A DNA stretch of 64,000 bases from Halopiger aswanensis (GTDB lineage Archaea > Halobacteriota > Halobacteria > Halobacteriales > Natrialbaceae), in contig NZ_RAPO01000003.1 in NCBI RefSeq assembly GCF_003610195.1, forward strand, positions 1-64,000, read 5' to 3'. Below, piece by piece: positions 4,274-15,303 of this stretch. The notes under the pieces were generated by a model that was not told the DNA's origin, searched no databases, and was given only the letters and a program-made list of their open reading frames with translations. The first letter of the stretch is position 1, and every line of letters begins with the position of its first letter. The position numbers and the translations under genes were made by a program.

Positions 4274-7200
4274 ATGGGATCGTCGTCCACCGACGCGGAC
4301 CACAGCGCGCAACTTCGTCGTCAGGAAGCGATCGCGGATCTGAGTCAGCAGGCGCTCGAGACGGGAGCGGCGGCTATCGACCAGTTGTTGGACGACGTGA
4401 CGACCGCCGTCGCGGCGGCGCTCGACCTCGAGTACTGTACGATCGTCGAGAGCCAGGCCGACGGGACCGGCGCCGTCTACAGGGCCGAAGGCGGCCTCGA
4501 GACCGACCGCATCGGTGCGACGGTGACCGCAGACCGGTTGGCGCAGATCGAACGCGCCCTTCGCGCCGACGGACCGGTCGTCAACGAGTTTCCCGCAGAC
4601 GGGGGTGTCCCGACGCCGCTGGCCGATCGCGGCGTCATCGACAGCGCTGCCGTGCGGATCGGGCCGCGCGACGATCCGTGCGGCGTCCTGAACGCGTACG
4701 CGACCGATCGCCGCGCGTTCACCGAGGACGAGCTGGCCTTCCTCGAGCGGGTCGCAGCCGTCCTCGCGTCGGCGGTCGAAAACGCCGACGCGAGGCGCGA
4801 CCTCGAGCGGACGGAGCGACGGTTCGAGGCGATCTTCGAGGACCCGAACATCCTCGTCGGCCTGCTCGAGCCCGACGGGACGGTGATCGACATCAACGGG
4901 ACGGCGATGGAGTACGTCGCGGCGGACCTCGAGGACGTGACCGGCGAGCCGTTCTGGGAGACGCCGTGGTGGGGCGAGGGCGACGACGTTCGAGACGACG
5001 TCCGGGAGTGGACCGAGCGAGCAGCGGCCGGCGAGTACGTGACTTTCGAGGCCGATCTCACCCGTCCGAGCGGGGAGCAGTACACGCTCGAGGGCGCGTT
5101 CCGTCCGGTTACGGACGACGACGGAAACGTGACGTCGGTCATCGTCTCGGACCGCGACGTCACCGTACGCGAGGAGCGCGAGCGCCGGCTGTCGACGCTG
5201 ATGGACAACGTCCCGGGGATGGTCTACCGCTGCGAGAACGAGCGGGGGTGGCCGATGGAATTCGTCAGCGACGCTTGCGAGGATCTGACCGGCTACGACC
5301 CCGGGGCCCTCGAGCGCGACGAGGTTAGCTGGGGCGAAGACGTGATGGTGCAGGCGGACCGCGAGAAGCTGTGGCAGACGGTCCAGCGCGAGACCGTCTC
5401 GGACGAGGATGGTCACACGTTCTCCGAGACCTACCGCATCGAGACGGCCGACGGAGAACGACGCTGGGTCAGAGACTACGGGCGGGGACTCTTCAACGAA
5501 GACGGCGACCTCGTCGCCGTCGAAGGGATTATCGCGGACATCACCGAGCGCAAGCGCCTCGAAGCCGAACTCGCGGAGAGCGAGCAGCGCTACCGCACGC
5601 TGGTCGAGCACTTCCCGAACGGCGCGGTCGCGCTCGTCGACGAGGATCTGACCTACCGGACGGTCGGCGGCAGCCCGACCGACACGGCCGGCGTCACGGC
5701 CGACGAGGTCGAAGGAAAAACGGTTTCCGAGGCCGTGCCGCAGCCGCTCGCCGACGAACTCGTCCCCCGCTACGAGCGCGCCCTCGAGGGCGAGTCGAGC
5801 GCGTTCGAGACGGCGATCGACGGCCGCGTCTTTGACTTTCACGTCGTCCCGGTTCGGGACGACGACGGCGAGGTGTTCGCCGCGCTCGGCATGTCCCAGG
5901 ACGTCACCGAGCGCTACGAGTACGAGCGGGAGCTCGAGGACGCCAAATCGCGACTCGAGGCGGCGACCGAAGCCGGGGCCGTCGGAACCTGGGAGTGGCA
6001 CGTTCCCGAGGACCGGATGGTCGTCGGCGAGACGTTCGCCGAGACGTTCGGGGTCGATCCCGAGTCGGCCCGCGACGGCGTCCCGCTCGATCGGTTCCTC
6101 GAGGCGGTCCACGAGGACGACCGCGATCGAGTCGAACGGAAGATCGAAGCGGCCCTCGAGTCCTGCGGCGAGTACGAGGCCGAGTACCGCGTCCGCAACG
6201 CCGACGGCGAGATCCGCTGGGTGGTGGCCCGCGGTCGCGTCGAGTGCGACGCGGACGGCGACCCCGTCCGGTTCCCGGGTGCGGTCACCGACATCACGGA
6301 ACGGAAGCGCGCGCAACTGCAACTCGAGCGGACGACCGACCAGCTCGAGACGCTGTTCGACGTCCTCCCCGTCGGCGTCATCGTCGCCGACGGCGACGGT
6401 GAGATACTGCAGGCCAACGACACCGCCGAGGAGATCTGGGGCGGCACCGCGTTGGACGCCCGCTCCGTCGAGGAGTACGAGAAGTACCCGGTCTGGTGGG
6501 CCGACTCGGGCGAGCGGGCCGCGCCCGAGGAGTTGACCCTCGCGCGGGTGCTCGACGGCGAGGAGGTGACCGACCCCGACATCTTCGAGATCGAGACCGA
6601 CGACGGCGAGCGCCGGATCATTCGGGCGGAAGGAATGCCGATCCGGAACGACCGCGGGGAGGTGATCCGCGGCGTCGCCACCATCACCGACATCACCGAG
6701 CGCCGGGAGTACCGGCGCAAACTCGAGGAGAGCGAGCAGCGCTACCGGACGCTGATTGACAACTTCCCCAACGGCGCCGTGGCCCTGTTCGACGAGGACC
6801 TGCGTTACCGGATCGTCGGCGGCACCGCCTTCGAAGAGATCGGCGACGCCGCGGAGACGATCGTCGGCAAGACCGTCCACGAGCGGTACCCCCCAGAGCT
6901 GGCCACTCGGCTGGAGACGGCGTTCGAGGACGCGCTCGAGGGCGAGGCCAGTTCCTTGGAGATCGCGTTCTACGACCGCGACTGGATGACCCACACGGTC
7001 CCCGTCACGGACGACGACGGCGAGATCTTCGGCGGGATGGTGATGGTCCAAGACATCACCGAGCGCAAGGAACGCGAGCAGAAACTCCGCGAACGGGAGC
7101 GCCGGCTCGAGCAGTACAAGGAGTACACCGACGCGATTCTGGACGCGATCGACGACGTGTTCTACGTCGTCGACGAAAAGGGCGAGCTCCAGCGGTGGAA

Positions 7201-9256
7201 CCGGAGCGTGGCCGAGGTGACCGGCTACGCGGACGAAGAGATCGACGCGATGTCGCCGACGGAATTAATCGCGCCTGACGATCACGAGGCCCTGTTTGAG
7301 GCGATCCGGGACGGCTTCGAGACGGGTTCGACCAGCGCGGAACTGACGGTCCGGACCGCCGACGGCGAACACGTCCCCTTCGAGTTCAACGCCTCGCGGC
7401 TTGCGGATCCGTGGGGGAACACCGTCCTCGCGGGCATCGGACGCGACATCACCGAGCGGCTCGAGCGCCAGCGCCGACTCGAGGAGAGCGAGCGGCGCTA
7501 CCGGACGCTGGCTCAGCACTTCCCCAACGGCGCCGTCGGCGTCTACGACCGCGATCTCGCGTATACGCTCGCGGCAGGCGAGGAACTCGGCGCGACGCTC
7601 CCGCCCGCGGATCGGCTCGAGGGGAACCTGATGCCCGACATCTTCCCCGAGCACACGGTCGGGGACCTCGAGCCGGTGTTTCGGGCGGCCGTCGAAGACG
7701 GCGAGACCACCAGTACGGAGACAACGTTCGGCGGCCGCCACTGGCGCGTCTGGGCGACGCCGCTGCGCGACGCCGACGGCGAGATCTTCGCCGGATTGAG
7801 TTTCGCGCAGGATGTCACCGAGCAGGTCGAGCGCCAGCGCCACCTCGAGCGGTACGAGACGATCGTCGAGGAAGTTAACGACGGCGTCTACGTGGTCGAC
7901 GAGGACGGCCGCTTCACGACGGTCAACGAGACGTACGCTGACATGGTCGGCTACGACCCCGACGACCTGATCGGCGAACACGTCTCGCTCGTCGTCGACG
8001 ACGAGGTGGCCGACCGCGTCAGCGACCTCGAGGAGACCGTCGCCGGCGACGCCGAGTGGCCGACGGTCGAGGCCGATCTGCGGACCGCCGACGGCGACAC
8101 CGTCCCCGTCGAGGCGAGCTTCGCGATGTTGCCCGAGGACGGCGGCGAGTGGCACCGAGTCGGCATCGTCCGAGACATCAGCGACCGGAAGGAGCGGGAA
8201 CGCCAGCTCGAGGAGTCCGAGCGGCGCTACCGAACGCTGATCGAGAACTTCCCGGACGGCGCGGTCGGGCTGTTCGACGAGAATCTCACGTACACGGTCG
8301 CGGGCGGCCAGCTGCTCGGCGAAGCTGGCGTTCAGCCGGACGACCGCGTCGGAAATAGCGTGTACGACACCTACCCGGACGAGGTCGTCGAGGAAATCGA
8401 ACCCTACTACCGGGCCGCGCTCGAGGGCGAATCCAACACCTTCGACGTCGAGTTCTACGGGCGACAGCTCCACGCGCACACCCTGCCCGTCAGGAACGCC
8501 GACGGCGACATCTACGCCGGCATGGTCGTCGTGCAGGACGTCACCGAGCGCCGCGAGTACGAGCGGAAACTCGAGCAGTCCAACGAGCGCCTCGAGCGGT
8601 TCGCCTACGCGGCCTCCCACGACCTCCAGGAGCCCCTGCGGATGGTCACGAGCTACCTCCAACTCCTCGAGAACCGCTACGCCGAGGCCTTCGACGAGGA
8701 CGGCCAGGAGTTCCTCGCGTTCGCGGTCGACGGCGCCGACCGCATGCGCGACATGATCGACGGGCTGCTCGAATATTCGCGGGTCGAGACGCGCGGCGAT
8801 TCGTTCGAGCCGGCGGACCTGAACGCGGTCGTCGACGAGGTATTGGCGGATCTGCAGTTCCGCATCGAGGAGACCGACGCCGAGATCTCGGTCGCGGACC
8901 TTCCGGAACTCGAGGCCGACGCGAGCCAGCTCCGGCAGGTGTTCCAGAACCTGCTCTCGAACGCGCTCACCTACAGCGGCGACGAGCCGCCCCGGGTGCA
9001 CGTCAGTGCCGACCGGCGCGGCGACGAGTGGGTGCTCTCGGTCGAAGACGACGGGATCGGCATCGATCCAGCCGATCAGGATCGGGTGTTCACGATCTTC
9101 GACCGGCTCCACAGCCGCGCGGAGTACGACGGCACCGGGATCGGGCTGGCGCTGTGTGAGCGCATCGTCGAGCGCCACGGTGGCGAGATCTGGGTCGACT
9201 CCGAACCCGGCGAGGGCTCGACGTTTTCGTTTACGCTCCCTGCGTCTCGCGACTGA
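4274..9256 (+). CDS. GAF/multi-PAS sensor histidine kinase, ~10 PAS domains
   Basis: 1660-residue soluble sensor kinase with no membrane segment. Domains in order: GAF-like region (~30-170), then PAS-type modules starting near 183, 306, 435, 560, 692, 819, 948, 1072, 1194 and 1315, most ending in a D[IV]TER hinge. Next comes a HisKA-type helix with the phospho-acceptor His in ASHDLQEP at residue 1449, and a C-terminal HATPase (N box QNLLSNAL, G1 DDGIGI, F/G2 GTGIGLAL). Modules at 435, 819, 1072 and 1315 are close relatives of each other (SE[QR]RYRTL...FP[ND]GAV) and alternate with other PAS types, so the array grew by internal duplication. Ligands are unknown; oxygen, redox or light cofactors are possible. 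No response regulator gene is adjacent, so its partner must be elsewhere. Unusually long for the class. Confidence 0.93.
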   Translation: MGSSSTDADHSAQLRRQEAIADLSQQALETGAAAIDQLLDDVTTAVAAALDLEYCTIVESQADGTGAVYRAEGGLETDRIGATVTADRLAQIERALRADGPVVNEFPADGGVPTPLADRGVIDSAAVRIGPRDDPCGVLNAYATDRRAFTEDELAFLERVAAVLASAVENADARRDLERTERRFEAIFEDPNILVGLLEPDGTVIDINGTAMEYVAADLEDVTGEPFWETPWWGEGDDVRDDVREWTERAAAGEYVTFEADLTRPSGEQYTLEGAFRPVTDDDGNVTSVIVSDRDVTVREERERRLSTLMDNVPGMVYRCENERGWPMEFVSDACEDLTGYDPGALERDEVSWGEDVMVQADREKLWQTVQRETVSDEDGHTFSETYRIETADGERRWVRDYGRGLFNEDGDLVAVEGIIADITERKRLEAELAESEQRYRTLVEHFPNGAVALVDEDLTYRTVGGSPTDTAGVTADEVEGKTVSEAVPQPLADELVPRYERALEGESSAFETAIDGRVFDFHVVPVRDDDGEVFAALGMSQDVTERYEYERELEDAKSRLEAATEAGAVGTWEWHVPEDRMVVGETFAETFGVDPESARDGVPLDRFLEAVHEDDRDRVERKIEAALESCGEYEAEYRVRNADGEIRWVVARGRVECDADGDPVRFPGAVTDITERKRAQLQLERTTDQLETLFDVLPVGVIVADGDGEILQANDTAEEIWGGTALDARSVEEYEKYPVWWADSGERAAPEELTLARVLDGEEVTDPDIFEIETDDGERRIIRAEGMPIRNDRGEVIRGVATITDITERREYRRKLEESEQRYRTLIDNFPNGAVALFDEDLRYRIVGGTAFEEIGDAAETIVGKTVHERYPPELATRLETAFEDALEGEASSLEIAFYDRDWMTHTVPVTDDDGEIFGGMVMVQDITERKEREQKLRERERRLEQYKEYTDAILDAIDDVFYVVDEKGELQRWNRSVAEVTGYADEEIDAMSPTELIAPDDHEALFEAIRDGFETGSTSAELTVRTADGEHVPFEFNASRLADPWGNTVLAGIGRDITERLERQRRLEESERRYRTLAQHFPNGAVGVYDRDLAYTLAAGEELGATLPPADRLEGNLMPDIFPEHTVGDLEPVFRAAVEDGETTSTETTFGGRHWRVWATPLRDADGEIFAGLSFAQDVTEQVERQRHLERYETIVEEVNDGVYVVDEDGRFTTVNETYADMVGYDPDDLIGEHVSLVVDDEVADRVSDLEETVAGDAEWPTVEADLRTADGDTVPVEASFAMLPEDGGEWHRVGIVRDISDRKERERQLEESERRYRTLIENFPDGAVGLFDENLTYTVAGGQLLGEAGVQPDDRVGNSVYDTYPDEVVEEIEPYYRAALEGESNTFDVEFYGRQLHAHTLPVRNADGDIYAGMVVVQDVTERREYERKLEQSNERLERFAYAASHDLQEPLRMVTSYLQLLENRYAEAFDEDGQEFLAFAVDGADRMRDMIDGLLEYSRVETRGDSFEPADLNAVVDEVLADLQFRIEETDAEISVADLPELEADASQLRQVFQNLLSNALTYSGDEPPRVHVSADRRGDEWVLSVEDDGIGIDPADQDRVFTIFDRLHSRAEYDGTGIGLALCERIVERHGGEIWVDSEPGEGSTFSFTLPASRD

Positions 9257-10765: not shown

Positions 10766-10853
10766 CTCGAGCGGGTCCGGCGGTAGGACGAACCGCTCGA
10801 GACACACCGAAACGCACATCCCGACCCGGCGTCAACCAGCGATTGCCTTCTGT

Positions 10854-10937
10854 GCGAGGGTAGCCAAGCAGGCCAACGGCGGTGGGCTTAAGACCCGCTC
10901 CCGTAGGGGTCCTTGGGTTCAAATCCCAACCCTCGCA
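10854..10937 (+). tRNA. tRNA-Leu, anticodon UAA
   Basis: 84-base class II tRNA. The acceptor stem GCGAGGG pairs with CCCTCGC, with discriminator A at 10937. The anticodon loop CTTAAGA gives UAA. There is a long variable arm, the T loop is GGTTCAAATCC, and no CCA is encoded. No intron is seen. The 3' 22 bases recur at 11035-11056. Confidence 0.95.
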
Positions 10938-11034
10938 TGTCGCCGCGAACACACCGTGAGCGGCGACTGCGTTTGCGGATTTGAACTACGCCAGTCGCAG
11001 CGTCCGAACGTAGTGAGGACGACCGTCTGGAGGT

Positions 11035-11056
11035 GGTTCAAATCCCAACCCTCGCA
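11035..11056 (+). repeat. Exact 22-base copy of the tRNA-Leu 3' end (att-like scar)
   Basis: Bases 11035-11056 repeat the T-loop/acceptor end of the tRNA (10916-10937) without mismatch, in the same orientation, 119 bases downstream. Short direct copies of a tRNA 3' end are what tyrosine-integrase elements leave as attL/attR. Both copies are followed by a weakly similar stretch (GTGAGC...GCGACT), so a small tandem duplication is an alternative. No integrase gene lies between or nearby. The rest of the 430-base space before the stress-protein gene shows only AT-rich promoter sequence. Confidence 0.75.
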
Positions 11057-11210
11057 GATCTTTCCGAATCGCTCGTGAGCAGCGACTCCACGACGCGGAC
11101 GATTCTATCGGCGATTCTCCTCTCGAGCCCAGACGTCGCTCGAACTAGCAACTGATCCGGACCATCCCTGACCGACAACTCGTCTGGGTGCCGTCTATCG
11201 GAGGAGATCG

Positions 11211-11233: not shown

Positions 11234-11365
11234 CCTACTGTAGATTACCGATACCCGAATTAGATACGATTAAGTTACGGAATCAAGAAGGAAGCTGCAG
11301 AGACACATGATGACCGACACATGTCGGACCCATCTCGAGCGAGCGATCGAACGCGGAGGAAACAA

Positions 11366-11806
11366 ATGACGAAGTCGCTGCTCACCCACCTGCTCGTCCC
11401 GATAGCGAACGAGAAGGATGCCACCGCGACGTGTCGCGGCCTCGAGTCGTACGTCGGCGCCGAGACGGAGACGATCACCGTCGTCCACGTCATCGAGAAG
11501 GCGGGCGGCTACATGGATAAGGCGCCGCTCGAGGCGCGAGAACAGCAGGCCGAGCGGGTGTTCGAGATCGTCGAGGGCCACTTCGCTGACGGTCCGCAGG
11601 TGCGACGGGAACTCCGGTACGGAACCGACGTGATCGACGAGATCGTCGCAGCGGCCAACGAGTTCGACGTCTCGGCGATCGGGTTCACGCCGCGGTCGGA
11701 GAGCCGGGTTCGCGAACTGCTGGCGGGCGATCCCGCGTACCGGCTGATCACCGAGAGTCGGCATCCGGTCATCGTCTTCTCGGACGCGACGGAGCAGGAA
11801 TCCTAA
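11366..11806 (+). CDS. Universal stress protein, UspA family
   Basis: 146-residue cytosolic UspA-fold protein, often a regulator of stress or of membrane transporters. Seen: LLVPIANEKDA at the N-terminus, HVIEK after strand 2, and a C-terminal region ending in ITESRHPVIVF. The glycine-rich ATP-binding motif of ATP-type Usps is not clear (the loop reads RSESRVRELLAGD), so ATP binding is uncertain. The start was chosen at 11366 because GGAGGA lies 5 bases upstream; an in-frame ATG at 11321 is less likely. It is followed by a trkA relic and then the convergent trkH-trkA operon. UspA proteins commonly accompany Trk systems, so it was probably once cotranscribed with that trkA copy. Confidence 0.85.
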   Translation: MTKSLLTHLLVPIANEKDATATCRGLESYVGAETETITVVHVIEKAGGYMDKAPLEAREQQAERVFEIVEGHFADGPQVRRELRYGTDVIDEIVAAANEFDVSAIGFTPRSESRVRELLAGDPAYRLITESRHPVIVFSDATEQES

Positions 11807-11810
11807 CCTA

Positions 11811-11918
11811 ACGATCTATCTGGTAATCGTCGGCGCGGGCAACATCAGCACAAATCTGATTCGACCGCTTCCGGACGGCTATCTCGTCGTTGCACTCGAG
11901 CGAGACGGCGACGTGCGG
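11811..11918 (+). pseudogene. Relic of a trkA gene with large internal deletion
   Basis: An in-frame stretch of 36 codons reads IYLVIVGAGNISTNLI and then LPDGYLVVALERDGDVR. The first part matches the first 17 residues of the intact TrkA at 13638-14306 (MYIVIIGAGSIGSNLI). The second matches its RCK_C start (LPDGCLVVALERDGEVR). About 150 intervening residues are missing and the start codon is ACG. The frame continues into unrelated sequence to a stop at 11951. It lies 5 bases after uspA on the same strand, which suggests a former uspA-trkA pair. The remaining bases up to 12090 show nothing recognisable. Confidence 0.8.
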
Positions 11919-12090
11919 TGCGGTCTTCCGACGGTTGAATCTGTACCGTGATCGGCTCACCAGCTGCCGCCGCTCGGTCGACTATCGCTGCGGTCGCGAT
12001 GCTCGACTCATTGCTGGGACGCAATCGGTGTCGCCGTCTCGAGTGAAAGGAGAATCAAGCCGGCTCTGGGAATCCAGCCCCGTACCGAGG

Positions 12091-13638
12091 TTAGCGATAG
12101 AGCCCGGCGCGAAGCAACATCCCGCGGAACAGCACCAGCACGGGGATGATCTCGAGGCGACCGACCCACATGTTCAGCAGGAAGACGACCTTCGCGGGCG
12201 TGGGCATCTCCGGCCCCGTAATCCCGGCGGAGAGCCCGACCGTACTCTGGGCGCTCATCACCTCGAACAGCACGTACTCGGCGCGGACGTCGGTCGGCAG
12301 CGTCGCCAGTAGCACGGCGACGCCGACCGCCAAGAAGAGCAGCCAGAGAACGAACACGATCGCCGCCTCCTCGAGTTCCCTGCTGGCCTGGGCCTCGCTG
12401 AGCGATCGGTCGCCGATCCGGAGCCGGCGGACCGCCGAGGACGGCGTGAAGATCCCGGCGATCCGCCAGCGGGCGCCCCTGACCAGCGTGATCGCTCGGA
12501 TGAGCTTGATGCCGCCGACGGTCGACCCCGCCGCGGCGCCGGTGAGCATACCGGCGCAGACGATCAGCGTCGCGTCCGCGGTCCAGATCTGTTCGGCGCC
12601 GTTGCCGATCGCCGTCGTGCCGAATCCGGCGTTCGAGGTCCCCGAAACGAACTGGAACAGGCCGTAGCGGAACGACTCCTCGAGCGTGTCGTAGGTTCCG
12701 CGGAGGTAGAGCGTGCCCGTCAGGACCAGCGAGCCGATGGAGAACCAGATGAATACCCAGCGCGTCTGCAGATCGGTGTAGAAGTTCTCGAGTTCACCCT
12801 TGAACAGGAGGTAGTGAACGGGGAAGGCGATGCTGCCGGCAACCATGATCGGGATGACGGCGTACTCGATCGCGGCGCTGTCGTAGTGGCCGATCGAGTC
12901 GGCGTGAATCGAGAACCCGCCGGTGGCGATGCCGGTCATCGCGTGGTTGATCGCGCCCCACAGCGGCATGCCGGCGACGAAGAGCAGCGCGATCCCGCCG
13001 ACGGTGAGGATTACGTAAATCTTCCAGATTTCCCGGACCGTCGAGATGATGCTGGGATGAATCTTCGTCGACCGGGCCTCGCTCTCGTACAGCGTGAGCG
13101 AGCCGCTGCCAGGACGTGCCAGAATGGCGACGGTGAGGACGATGACGCCGACCCCGCCGATCCACTCGGTAAAGGAGCGCCACCACAGGAGCGTCGCCGG
13201 CAGTTGTTCCTCGGTGTGAGCCATCGTCAACCCGGTCGAGGTGAAGCCGCTGAGACTCTCGAAGATCCCGTTCAGCGGATCGCGGAAGGCGGCGGTCGTC
13301 TCGTTGAGTGCCGGGGCATTCGCCCACGCGGGGAACGGGTCTATCGCGATCGTCCACGCGATCAACAGGAACGGGAGGCCGCCGAAGACGCCCACCGCCG
13401 CCCACGCGGCTGCTGCGATGAGCATCCCGTGGAGTTTGTCCGGTTCGGGCGCGTCGGAAAACTGGCGTACGAGTCCGGCGCCGAGACCGAACACGATGAG
13501 CCCTGCGGCGATGAGGGGCGGAATCGCGTAGAACTCGTCGTAGAGAATCGCTACGCCGGTCGAAACGAACATCATCAGCGAAATGATCCGCAGGATGCGC
13601 CCGACGTCCCGACCGACCGTCCGAAACTCGACTCTCAT
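12091..13638 (-). CDS. trkH: Potassium uptake membrane subunit TrkH
   Basis: 515-residue integral membrane protein that conducts K+ inward, the channel-like subunit of the Trk/Ktr system. Seen: about ten hydrophobic helices and the four pore-loop signatures of the family (FTSTGLTM, IATGGFS, GTSNAGFG, QSTVGLS), each with the filter Gly, at normal length. Its ATG at 13638 overlaps the trkA stop by one base (TAATG), so it is translationally coupled to trkA. Potassium uptake is central to salt-in osmoadaptation in haloarchaea. Confidence 0.95.
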   Translation of the reverse strand: MRVEFRTVGRDVGRILRIISLMMFVSTGVAILYDEFYAIPPLIAAGLIVFGLGAGLVRQFSDAPEPDKLHGMLIAAAAWAAVGVFGGLPFLLIAWTIAIDPFPAWANAPALNETTAAFRDPLNGIFESLSGFTSTGLTMAHTEEQLPATLLWWRSFTEWIGGVGVIVLTVAILARPGSGSLTLYESEARSTKIHPSIISTVREIWKIYVILTVGGIALLFVAGMPLWGAINHAMTGIATGGFSIHADSIGHYDSAAIEYAVIPIMVAGSIAFPVHYLLFKGELENFYTDLQTRWVFIWFSIGSLVLTGTLYLRGTYDTLEESFRYGLFQFVSGTSNAGFGTTAIGNGAEQIWTADATLIVCAGMLTGAAAGSTVGGIKLIRAITLVRGARWRIAGIFTPSSAVRRLRIGDRSLSEAQASRELEEAAIVFVLWLLFLAVGVAVLLATLPTDVRAEYVLFEVMSAQSTVGLSAGITGPEMPTPAKVVFLLNMWVGRLEIIPVLVLFRGMLLRAGLYR

Positions 13639-14306
13639 TACTGTGAACCCGTAAACGCCGCGACCGCATCCGACAGCGTCGCGTCGTCGGTAAAGACAGT
13701 CACCGTATCGCCGGCGTGAATCGTCGTTCCTCCCTTCGGCGCTCGCACCTCACCGTCGCGCTCGAGCGCGACGACGAGACAGCCGTCGGGGAGTCGGCCC
13801 TTCTCTTGGGCCGTCGACAGCACCTGCCCGTTCATCGGGGCGTCGTCGGTGACGGTTAGCTCGATCAGTTCGGTCTGATCGTCGAGTTCGATGAAGTCGC
13901 TGACGTTCGGGTAACGAACGGAGTGATAGAGGTAGTCGGCGATCAGCCGCTGGGGGTTCTCGATCAGGGACACGCCGATCTTCTCGAACACCGGCAGGTT
14001 TTCCGGCTCGTGAACGACGCTGACGAGGTTGGGCACGTCGTGTTCCTGCGCGAGCAACATCACCATGATGTTGACCGCGTCGACGTCCGTCGTCGAAATA
14101 ACGGCGTCTGCACGGTCGATGTCGGCATCCTGCAGCGTGCCGTGGTTCGTCGCGTCGGCGTTCAGGACGAGGCAGTCGTACTCCGCCGAGACCTCGTTAG
14201 CCCGTTCCTCGTCGGTTTCGATGACGACCACGTCGTTGCCGTCGTTGACCGCGAGATCGATCAAATTCGAGCCGATGCTTCCCGCGCCGATGATTACGAT
14301 ATACAT
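13638..14306 (-). CDS. trkA: Trk potassium uptake NAD-binding subunit TrkA
   Basis: 222-residue cytosolic RCK protein that gates TrkH in response to nucleotide. Seen: the Rossmann motif VIIGAGSIGSNL at the N-terminus, acidic strand-2 end (VVIETDEE), and a C-terminal RCK_C domain (about 135-215) including LPDGCLVVALERDGEV and an AGDTVTVF ending. It is the first gene of the trkA-trkH operon. The leader region upstream is about 150 bases long before a TATA-like box. A truncated relative survives at 11811-11918. Confidence 0.93.
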   Translation of the reverse strand: MYIVIIGAGSIGSNLIDLAVNDGNDVVVIETDEERANEVSAEYDCLVLNADATNHGTLQDADIDRADAVISTTDVDAVNIMVMLLAQEHDVPNLVSVVHEPENLPVFEKIGVSLIENPQRLIADYLYHSVRYPNVSDFIELDDQTELIELTVTDDAPMNGQVLSTAQEKGRLPDGCLVVALERDGEVRAPKGGTTIHAGDTVTVFTDDATLSDAVAAFTGSQ

Positions 14307-14460
14307 GTGAATCTCACCAGGGAATGGCCGCCGGACGCGGCCCGCTTGCGCTCGTCAGCGCCACCGCAGCCGCGATCCGTCGACCGCGTGGAGGGCACGC
14401 CGATCCGGTTCGCTACCGGTATCGTCGTCGGATCTTATGCTATTGATTACGGATTGCCCA

Positions 14461-14470
14461 ATATAAACTC
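14461..14470 (-). promoter_or_regulatory. TATA-like box upstream of trkA-trkH
   Basis: GAGTTTATAT on the minus strand is the strongest TATA-like sequence between trkA and kptA. It would give a leader of about 130 bases. The 300-base space (14307-14607) holds no convincing gene. It is AT-rich only around 14430-14510. Confidence 0.4.
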
Positions 14471-14607
14471 ACCCATATTACGTATTCGATAATGCCGTCA
14501 GAATCCAAATGACATTCGGGCCACAGATGCGAACGGGACTACGGAGAGCCGCCGAGGTGCGCCACCGCTCTCGAGAAGCCGGGTATCCGCGATCGAGTGT
14601 CGGCGGA

Positions 14608-15303
14608 CTACGCCGCCGACGCTGCGCGCTCGAGGTACGCGGGCGGCACCGCGTCGGTCGTGTACGTTTCTTCGCCGCGCTTGGTGATCCGACGGCCATC
14701 TGCGAGCATCGCCGCGGCGTCGACGACTAATACGACCGGCTCGGCGGCGTGGCGCTGTCCGACCCGTCGGGCCGCCTTCCGGCTCTCCGAGAGGTGGACC
14801 TGCTGGCGCGACATCGGCTTGAGCCCCTCCTCGCGGATCGACGCGAGATTCTCGGGCGCGGTGCCGTGGTAGAGGTCGTCGGGCACCGGCGAATCCGTCG
14901 GGTCCGAGGCGCTTTGCGCCTCGCTCTCGAGGTCGACGTCGACCGAGTGGCCGTAGGCGGCGCGGACGCGATCTGCGTCGGAGCCGCCGTCGCTCCCCGT
15001 CCGCTCGAACCGTCCCTTCGGATCCGTCGCGATCACGCCCGCGACGTGGCGTTCGTCCGCCCAACCGTACTTGCGCTCGACCGCAGCCACGAGGTCCGCG
15101 TAGGCGGTCCAGCCGCGCTCGTCGAGGTCGATGCCGGCGTCGTCGGGGAAGTGCCGGAGCGCACCGCTCATGAACTTCGAGAGTCGCTGCCGGCGTTCAC
15201 CGGAGAGCAGTTCCGAGCCGCGCTCGCCGCAGGCGGGACAGCCGTCGCCCTCGTCGGCGGAGAACGGTCCGTGCGTCGGACAGGTTCGAATCGGTGCCGT
15301 CAC
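14608..15303 (-). CDS. kptA: RNA 2'-phosphotransferase (Tpt1/KptA)
   Basis: 231-residue enzyme that removes a 2'-phosphate from RNA splice junctions using NAD+, making ADP-ribose 1'',2''-cyclic phosphate. Seen: an N-terminal zinc ribbon (CPTHGPF ... CPACG), then the KptA domain with LSKFMSGALRHFPDD (Arg-His pair), LYHGT, and HLSESRKAARRVG near the C-terminus, which carry the conserved Arg/His set. The ribbon is typical of archaeal members. The start is the GTG at 15303; no ATG precedes the ribbon. It lies downstream of nadC on the same strand after 86 bases. Coupling with NAD synthesis is suggestive but may be chance. Confidence 0.9.
   Translation of the reverse strand: MTAPIRTCPTHGPFSADEGDGCPACGERGSELLSGERRQRLSKFMSGALRHFPDDAGIDLDERGWTAYADLVAAVERKYGWADERHVAGVIATDPKGRFERTGSDGGSDADRVRAAYGHSVDVDLESEAQSASDPTDSPVPDDLYHGTAPENLASIREEGLKPMSRQQVHLSESRKAARRVGQRHAAEPVVLVVDAAAMLADGRRITKRGEETYTTDAVPPAYLERAASAA

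Follow-up and report, generated by a model that had tools for sequence, protein, structure and literature searches.

Remnants of trkA and trkH behind an intact uspA gene in Halopiger aswanensis: a probable trace of a lost uspA-trkA-trkH operon between tRNA-Leu and kptA

A report on Halorubrum ezzemoulense describes TrkAH homeocassettes, i.e., alternative and diverged sets of K+ uptake genes found at one chromosomal place, together with an extra shorter trkA, a duplicated trkH and an island-encoded TrkA of 230 residues (PMC11078007). In other haloarchaea, an operon of the order uspA-trkA-trkH is seen in Natrialba swarupiae (L045), Natronoglomus (L046), Natronococcus pandeyae (L047) and Natronolimnohabitans innermongolicus (L048), which are the same places as those listed under genomes G086, G025, G126 and G021 in our comparison set of 125 genomes of the family Natrialbaceae. 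Our literature search found no work treating TrkA, TrkH and UspA together in haloarchaea. Here, we analyzed a 64,000-nucleotide stretch of the Halopiger aswanensis genome (the window), in which a short segment directly behind an intact uspA is almost certainly the dead remnant of a former plus-strand uspA-trkA-trkH operon that suffered two deletions.

Between tRNA-Leu and kptA, the window carries uspA and the relic on the plus strand, then trkH and trkA on the minus strand, followed by kptA, also on the minus strand (Table 1). An intact co-directional uspA-trkA-trkH is absent from the window: the order and the strand are kept, and trkA and trkH are present as scraps. The uspA ATG has GGAGG immediately 5' of it, and the gene is closest within the family to that of genome G109 (73%), the two being sisters in the tree (support 97/99). 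Since dN and dS against the G109 copy are 0.20 and 0.64, respectively, the comparison suggests that uspA is under constraint. In the facing operon, the intact trkA matches that of G001, the sole other genome of the window's genus compared, at 94%.

Table 1. Features of the variable interval between tRNA-Leu and kptA in the window
Feature	Position	Strand	Evidence
tRNA-Leu (TAA), left-hand limit of the interval	10853-10938	+	ARAGORN; Rfam tRNA 10854-10937
uspA, intact, 146 aa, Usp family	11366-11806	+	Pfam Usp, E 1.3e-9
Relic, TrkA residues 1-16 (IYLVIVGAGNISTNLI)	11814-11861	+	TrkA profile positions 1-16
First-deletion junction, codons CGA CCG	11862-11867	+	Net 459 nt absent vs intact trkA
Relic, TrkA residues 172-188 (LPDGYLVVALERDGDVR), start of the TrkA_C part	11868-11918	+	TrkA profile positions 172-189
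Relic, last trkH codons, stop and following bases	11923-11957	+	Alignment to G109 trkH
trkH, intact, facing operon, TrkH clade 1	12091-13638	-	Pfam TrkH, E 4.7e-73; 95% to G001
trkA, intact, 222 aa, facing operon	13638-14306	-	Pfam TrkA_N, E 9.3e-28; TrkA_C, E 1.4e-10
kptA, right end of the variable interval, start putative	14608-15303	-	

Several other elements were observed on the tRNA-Leu side of the window. Positions 10938-11060, behind tRNA-Leu, comprise a small hairpin and a long hairpin (GGATTTGAAC...GTTCAAATCC), followed by a duplicate of the 3' end of tRNA-Leu, with an RNA fold z of -5.66. The motif TTCAAAT(C/T)C recurs at most 170 bases behind tRNA-Leu in 18 of 24 family loci; the copied end is the genome's own tRNA end in 13 of these 18 (by eye), and the hairpin middles differ. 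The window's genome also carries a related hairpin middle behind tRNA-His, framed by the tRNA-His 3' end, and a similar hairpin unit behind tRNA-Gly. A candidate sR17 at 11278-11334 scored 16.5 bits for a gathering threshold of 36 and, being sub-threshold, was treated as chance. Farther upstream, a plus-strand frame of 1660 aa (4274-9256) resembles, on visual inspection, a sensor histidine kinase in which PAS-like modules are repeated, and G001 DNA matches shifted copies inside this frame at 65-80%, besides the true match.

Behind uspA, the plus-strand translation from 11811 reads TIYLVIVGAGNISTNLI-RP-LPDGYLVVALERDGDVR, which is to be compared with the N-terminus MYIVIIGAGSIGSNLI and the residues 172-188, LPDGCLVVALERDGEVR, of the window's intact TrkA. 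Both halves share one reading frame and are, as judged from homology, a trkA remnant. A TrkA profile matched 2 of the 1275 stop-to-stop frames of at least 20 codons scanned in the window at E < 0.1, namely, the intact trkA frame (13641-14306, minus strand; E 3.1e-137) and the relic frame (11748-11948, plus strand; E 5.7e-7, 25.7 bits). The first-pass annotation of this DNA, which had proposed a trkA relic joining the N-terminus to the RCK_C start, was right in this respect. The profile was built from 26 sequences of relatives, after 4 of 30 copies had been dropped: the window's own, both L139 copies, whose first five codons are unlike TrkA, and the L142 copy, whose frame is overlong. At L142 (G137), the frame of trkA at 7991 (minus strand) runs to 615 codons, and at L139 (G075), the minus-strand copies at 8072 and 11093 share the same five aberrant first codons, one copy being of 255 codons; these oddities could stem from frameshifts, insertions or errors in sequencing.

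Scored singly, the two halves of the relic are weak against the TrkA profile (iE of 0.015 for the N part and 0.0026 for the C part). Shuffles were used because short trk queries match other spacers at similar raw scores too, and the best frame in 1000 dinucleotide shuffles of 11807-12090 reached 6.0 bits, compared with 25.7 bits for the relic. Against the 30 trkA copies, 25-38 of 48 nt are identical in the N part (30-38 when the two L139 copies are left out, and 37 for the window's own intact trkA) and 33-43 of 51 nt in the C part; 15 of the 17 residues of the C part are identical to the window's own TrkA, among the best 12 of 183 matches in 11800-12100. Pfam TrkA_N on the relic gives E 0.11 and 13.3 bits for a cut-off of 23.8, only 16 residues of the incomplete domain being left. 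The net gap between the halves is 459 nt (153 codons) in 29 of the 30 copies compared, in agreement with the loss of some 150 residues and 450 bases estimated initially; the exception is the L139 copy at 11093, itself altered, for which the C part is placed elsewhere.

The relic extends beyond 11918, where the first-pass annotation had ended it, into a trkH tail that agrees with the G109 trkH at 29 of 35 aligned positions, including the stop and five bases beyond. One base is absent in the last codon, and the frame differs from that of the trkA part. G109 provided the best match among the 30 trkH tails compared, with an alignment score of 38, which was reached by 0 of 300 shuffles (shuffle maximum, 35). 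The seven top-scoring tails (38 to 25) all belong to TrkH clade 2, whereas the window's own clade-1 tail scores 14. Moreover, tblastn of 11919-12090 alone placed TrkH residues 506-515 at 11920-11949 with 23.5 bits, a value attained by 0 of 40 shuffles (maximum, 22.7). On both strands of the whole window, only the window's own trkH tail scores above 38 (54 and 40). Unrelated places reach 35, and it is thus the position of the match, more than its score taken alone, that makes it convincing. Read together with its position, this alignment indicates that the relic comprises trkH as well as trkA. A second deletion of ~1.6 kb (counted on the G109 sequence), extending between trkA residue 188 and the trkH tail, took the end of trkA and nearly all of trkH, so that the single deletion of about 450 bases postulated at first is real but has to be complemented by a larger one.

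The comparison with relatives gives this arrangement its context. At E <= 1e-35, uspA relatives were counted at 19 places in the 125 genomes, 18 of them outside the window's genome; trkA lies directly downstream on the same strand in 13 of these 18, and trkH comes next after trkA in all 11 uspA-trkA cases fetched. In G109 (L126), the order is ferredoxin, tRNA-Leu, uspA (+), trkA (+), trkH (+) and kptA (-), i.e., an intact operon at the same locus and in the same orientation as the relic. In G001 and G067 (L075, L135), the second of which belongs to a different genus, the locus holds only the facing trkA-trkH operon and no uspA. G001 matches the window at ~88% nt through the locus, the ~1 kb with uspA and the relic being absent from it. 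The TrkH tree resolves two clades (support 100/100), with the window, G001 and G067 in one and G109 in the other.

We further surveyed the loci in which the ferredoxin/tRNA-Leu side faces kptA with up to ~10 kb between them. This arrangement was found in 24 of the 125 genomes, and all 24 were read; the definition leaves out G084 and G086 (markers near but not convergent) as well as G025 and G066 (markers 46 to 51 kb apart). Four of the 24 intervals (window, G001, G067 and G109) contain trk genes, which represent the two TrkH clades in opposite orientation, and the other 20 gave no TrkA, TrkH or UspA relative at E <= 1e-3. Among the genomes searched, the relic is carried by one only. We also searched 14310-14607, 5' of the intact trkA, for uspA traces and the G067 and G001 spacers for trk or uspA scraps; nothing beyond shuffles was obtained, 7, 5 and 3 of 40 of which, respectively, scored as well or better. 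Elsewhere in the family, uspA survives as a 3' scrap (starting at about residue 87 or farther on) directly upstream of an intact or nearly intact trkA at L129 (G074), L139 (G075), L143 (G068) and L142 (G137). Such loci are the mirror image of the window's relic, with decay in the other direction.

These data bear on whether the two sets of trk genes in the window could go back to a single operon. An inversion scar, in which the trkA-trkH part of one ancestral uspA-trkA-trkH was inverted and a staggered break left behind uspA a second trkA that later decayed, appears very unlikely. Such an event would be in line with G025 (L077), the one genome in which a clade-1 trkA-trkH, similar to that of the window, accompanies uspA, and with the C part of the trkA relic, which is nearer to the clade-1 copies L132 and L136 (43/51 nt) than to G109 (37/51). 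However, the plus-strand trkH tail after the trkA scrap fits the G109 and other clade-2 tails and not the window's own, G001 and G067 have the facing trkA-trkH at the locus but no uspA, and in G109 a clade-2 operon lies behind the sister uspA. A recent copy is also unlikely because dS is 0.67 between the relic and the window's own trkA and 0.29 between the latter and G001 over the same codons (~26 synonymous sites). As a point against a G109-like origin, in a nucleotide maximum-likelihood tree of 99 aligned nt with 27 intact copies (the L139 and L142 copies, 3 of 30, being dropped), the trkA part stood beside G130 and G131 and not beside G109, with support of 56/46, too low to fix its place. 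Gene conversion may blur the origin of the trkA scrap, since in G024 (L133/L134) the trkA copies are sisters (100/97; 94.3% nt) and their trkH genes fall in different clades (73.3% nt), as if gene conversion had homogenized trkA only. More broadly, trkA is more alike than trkH in 7 of 8 two-copy genomes, the exception being G032 (72.4% versus 75.0%), and the same pattern was noted at L127, L128, L129 and L139; in some two-copy genomes, this may reflect no more than a better-conserved trkA.

We give slightly less credit still to the proposal that the short frame or its RNA was kept for a function, as a real small protein or as a regulatory leftover, e.g., in the uspA 3' untranslated region. Admittedly, no stop interrupts the frame between 11748 and 11948, the first deletion is in frame (an outcome with one chance in three), and amino acid changes in the relic are in only modest excess (pN of 0.10-0.17 in seven comparisons versus 0.03-0.10 in five between intact copies). 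Nevertheless, the usual start codon is gone: TAACG-ATG-TAT in G109 aligns with TAACG-ATC-TAT in the window, which puts the lost trkA start at ATC 11814 and shows that ACG 11811, initially taken for the start, is the preceding codon. The sole ATG, GTG or TTG in the open frame is GTG 11913, two codons before the end of the trkA part. The GxGxxG sequence, which we take to be the nucleotide-binding motif of TrkA, is broken as well, with Gly7 and Gly9 retained and Gly12, a glycine in 26/26 TrkA of relatives, replaced by serine. The short form occurs in no relative among the genomes searched and is absent from G001; a relative sharing this frame with an ATG and under purifying selection, the finding that would have spoken for a small protein, turned up neither in G001 nor in the 20 other tRNA-Leu/kptA intervals. 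At the RNA level, 11804-11950 shows no structure beyond shuffles (z -0.83; 36/200 shuffles fold equally well), and Rfam gave no match on the relic. In the syntenic place behind uspA, the stretch combines homology to trkA and trkH with disabling changes, as a pseudogene remnant would: two deletions, a lost start and a trkH of which only the tail is left.

The possibility that unrelated intergenic DNA resembles trkA and trkH by accident, to which the shortness of each piece, the weak single scores (iE 0.015 and 0.0026 for trkA, 38 against a background of up to 35 for trkH) and the Pfam E of just 0.11 might lend color, can practically be dismissed: the three pieces follow one another in the expected order on one strand, immediately after uspA, at the position that trkA-trkH occupies in relatives; the joint TrkA score is far above the best of the 1000 shuffles; and there is synteny with G109.

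Altogether, we propose a model in which the remnant of uspA-trkA-trkH dates from an ancestor that would have carried this operon facing the still-intact trkA-trkH, the two converging between tRNA-Leu and kptA. The first-pass annotation had suggested an ancestral uspA-trkA pair opposite the intact operon; synteny in relatives, above all in G109, agrees with that arrangement, with the amendment that the lost unit also held trkH. Because none of the genomes examined combines the two operons, intact and convergent, at this locus, the two-operon ancestor is a step that we infer, and the synteny check advised at the outset delivered the intact operon of G109 but no genome with the pair. With two adjacent K+ uptake operons, one would have been redundant and could be deleted, and uspA was probably kept under selection while the neighboring operon was lost. 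In the simplest history, the lineages would then have lost different parts of the two-operon ancestor. The remnant yields no TrkA; at most, it would be carried along at the 3' end of the uspA transcript, and K+ uptake at the locus would depend on the intact TrkA-TrkH pair. A more ambitious hypothesis, on which we would not count, is that the tRNA-Leu/kptA interval serves, in this family, as a place where rival operons for K+ uptake replace one another, with the help of the hairpin repeats copying the tRNA-Leu 3' end; uspA and the scraps could then be the footprint of a displaced operon whose replacement is nearly finished.

Our study describes an ordinary pseudogene that is useful for gene history. 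Where one locus had two K+ uptake operons, the relic allows the loss of one of them to be ordered, and it accounts for an orphan uspA that has been left without its usual partners. A function given to the window's uspA from its operon context would mislead.

With respect to known systems, the relic retains the gene order of the uspA-trkA-trkH operon of relatives, all on one strand. Unlike in those operons, in which trkA and trkH are intact, ~33 trkA codons and ~9 trkH codons remain recognizable here. Compared with TrkA proteins (Pfam TrkA_N plus TrkA_C), residues 1-16 and 172-188 can still be identified, and the relic is without 153 internal codons (net), the last 34 codons and the start codon, with Gly12 replaced. 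The locus may be comparable to the homeocassettes of Halorubrum ezzemoulense, in which alternative K+ uptake gene sets occupy one site (PMC11078007); in contrast to them, the second operon of the window is dead, and the comparison is made between species and genera rather than between strains.
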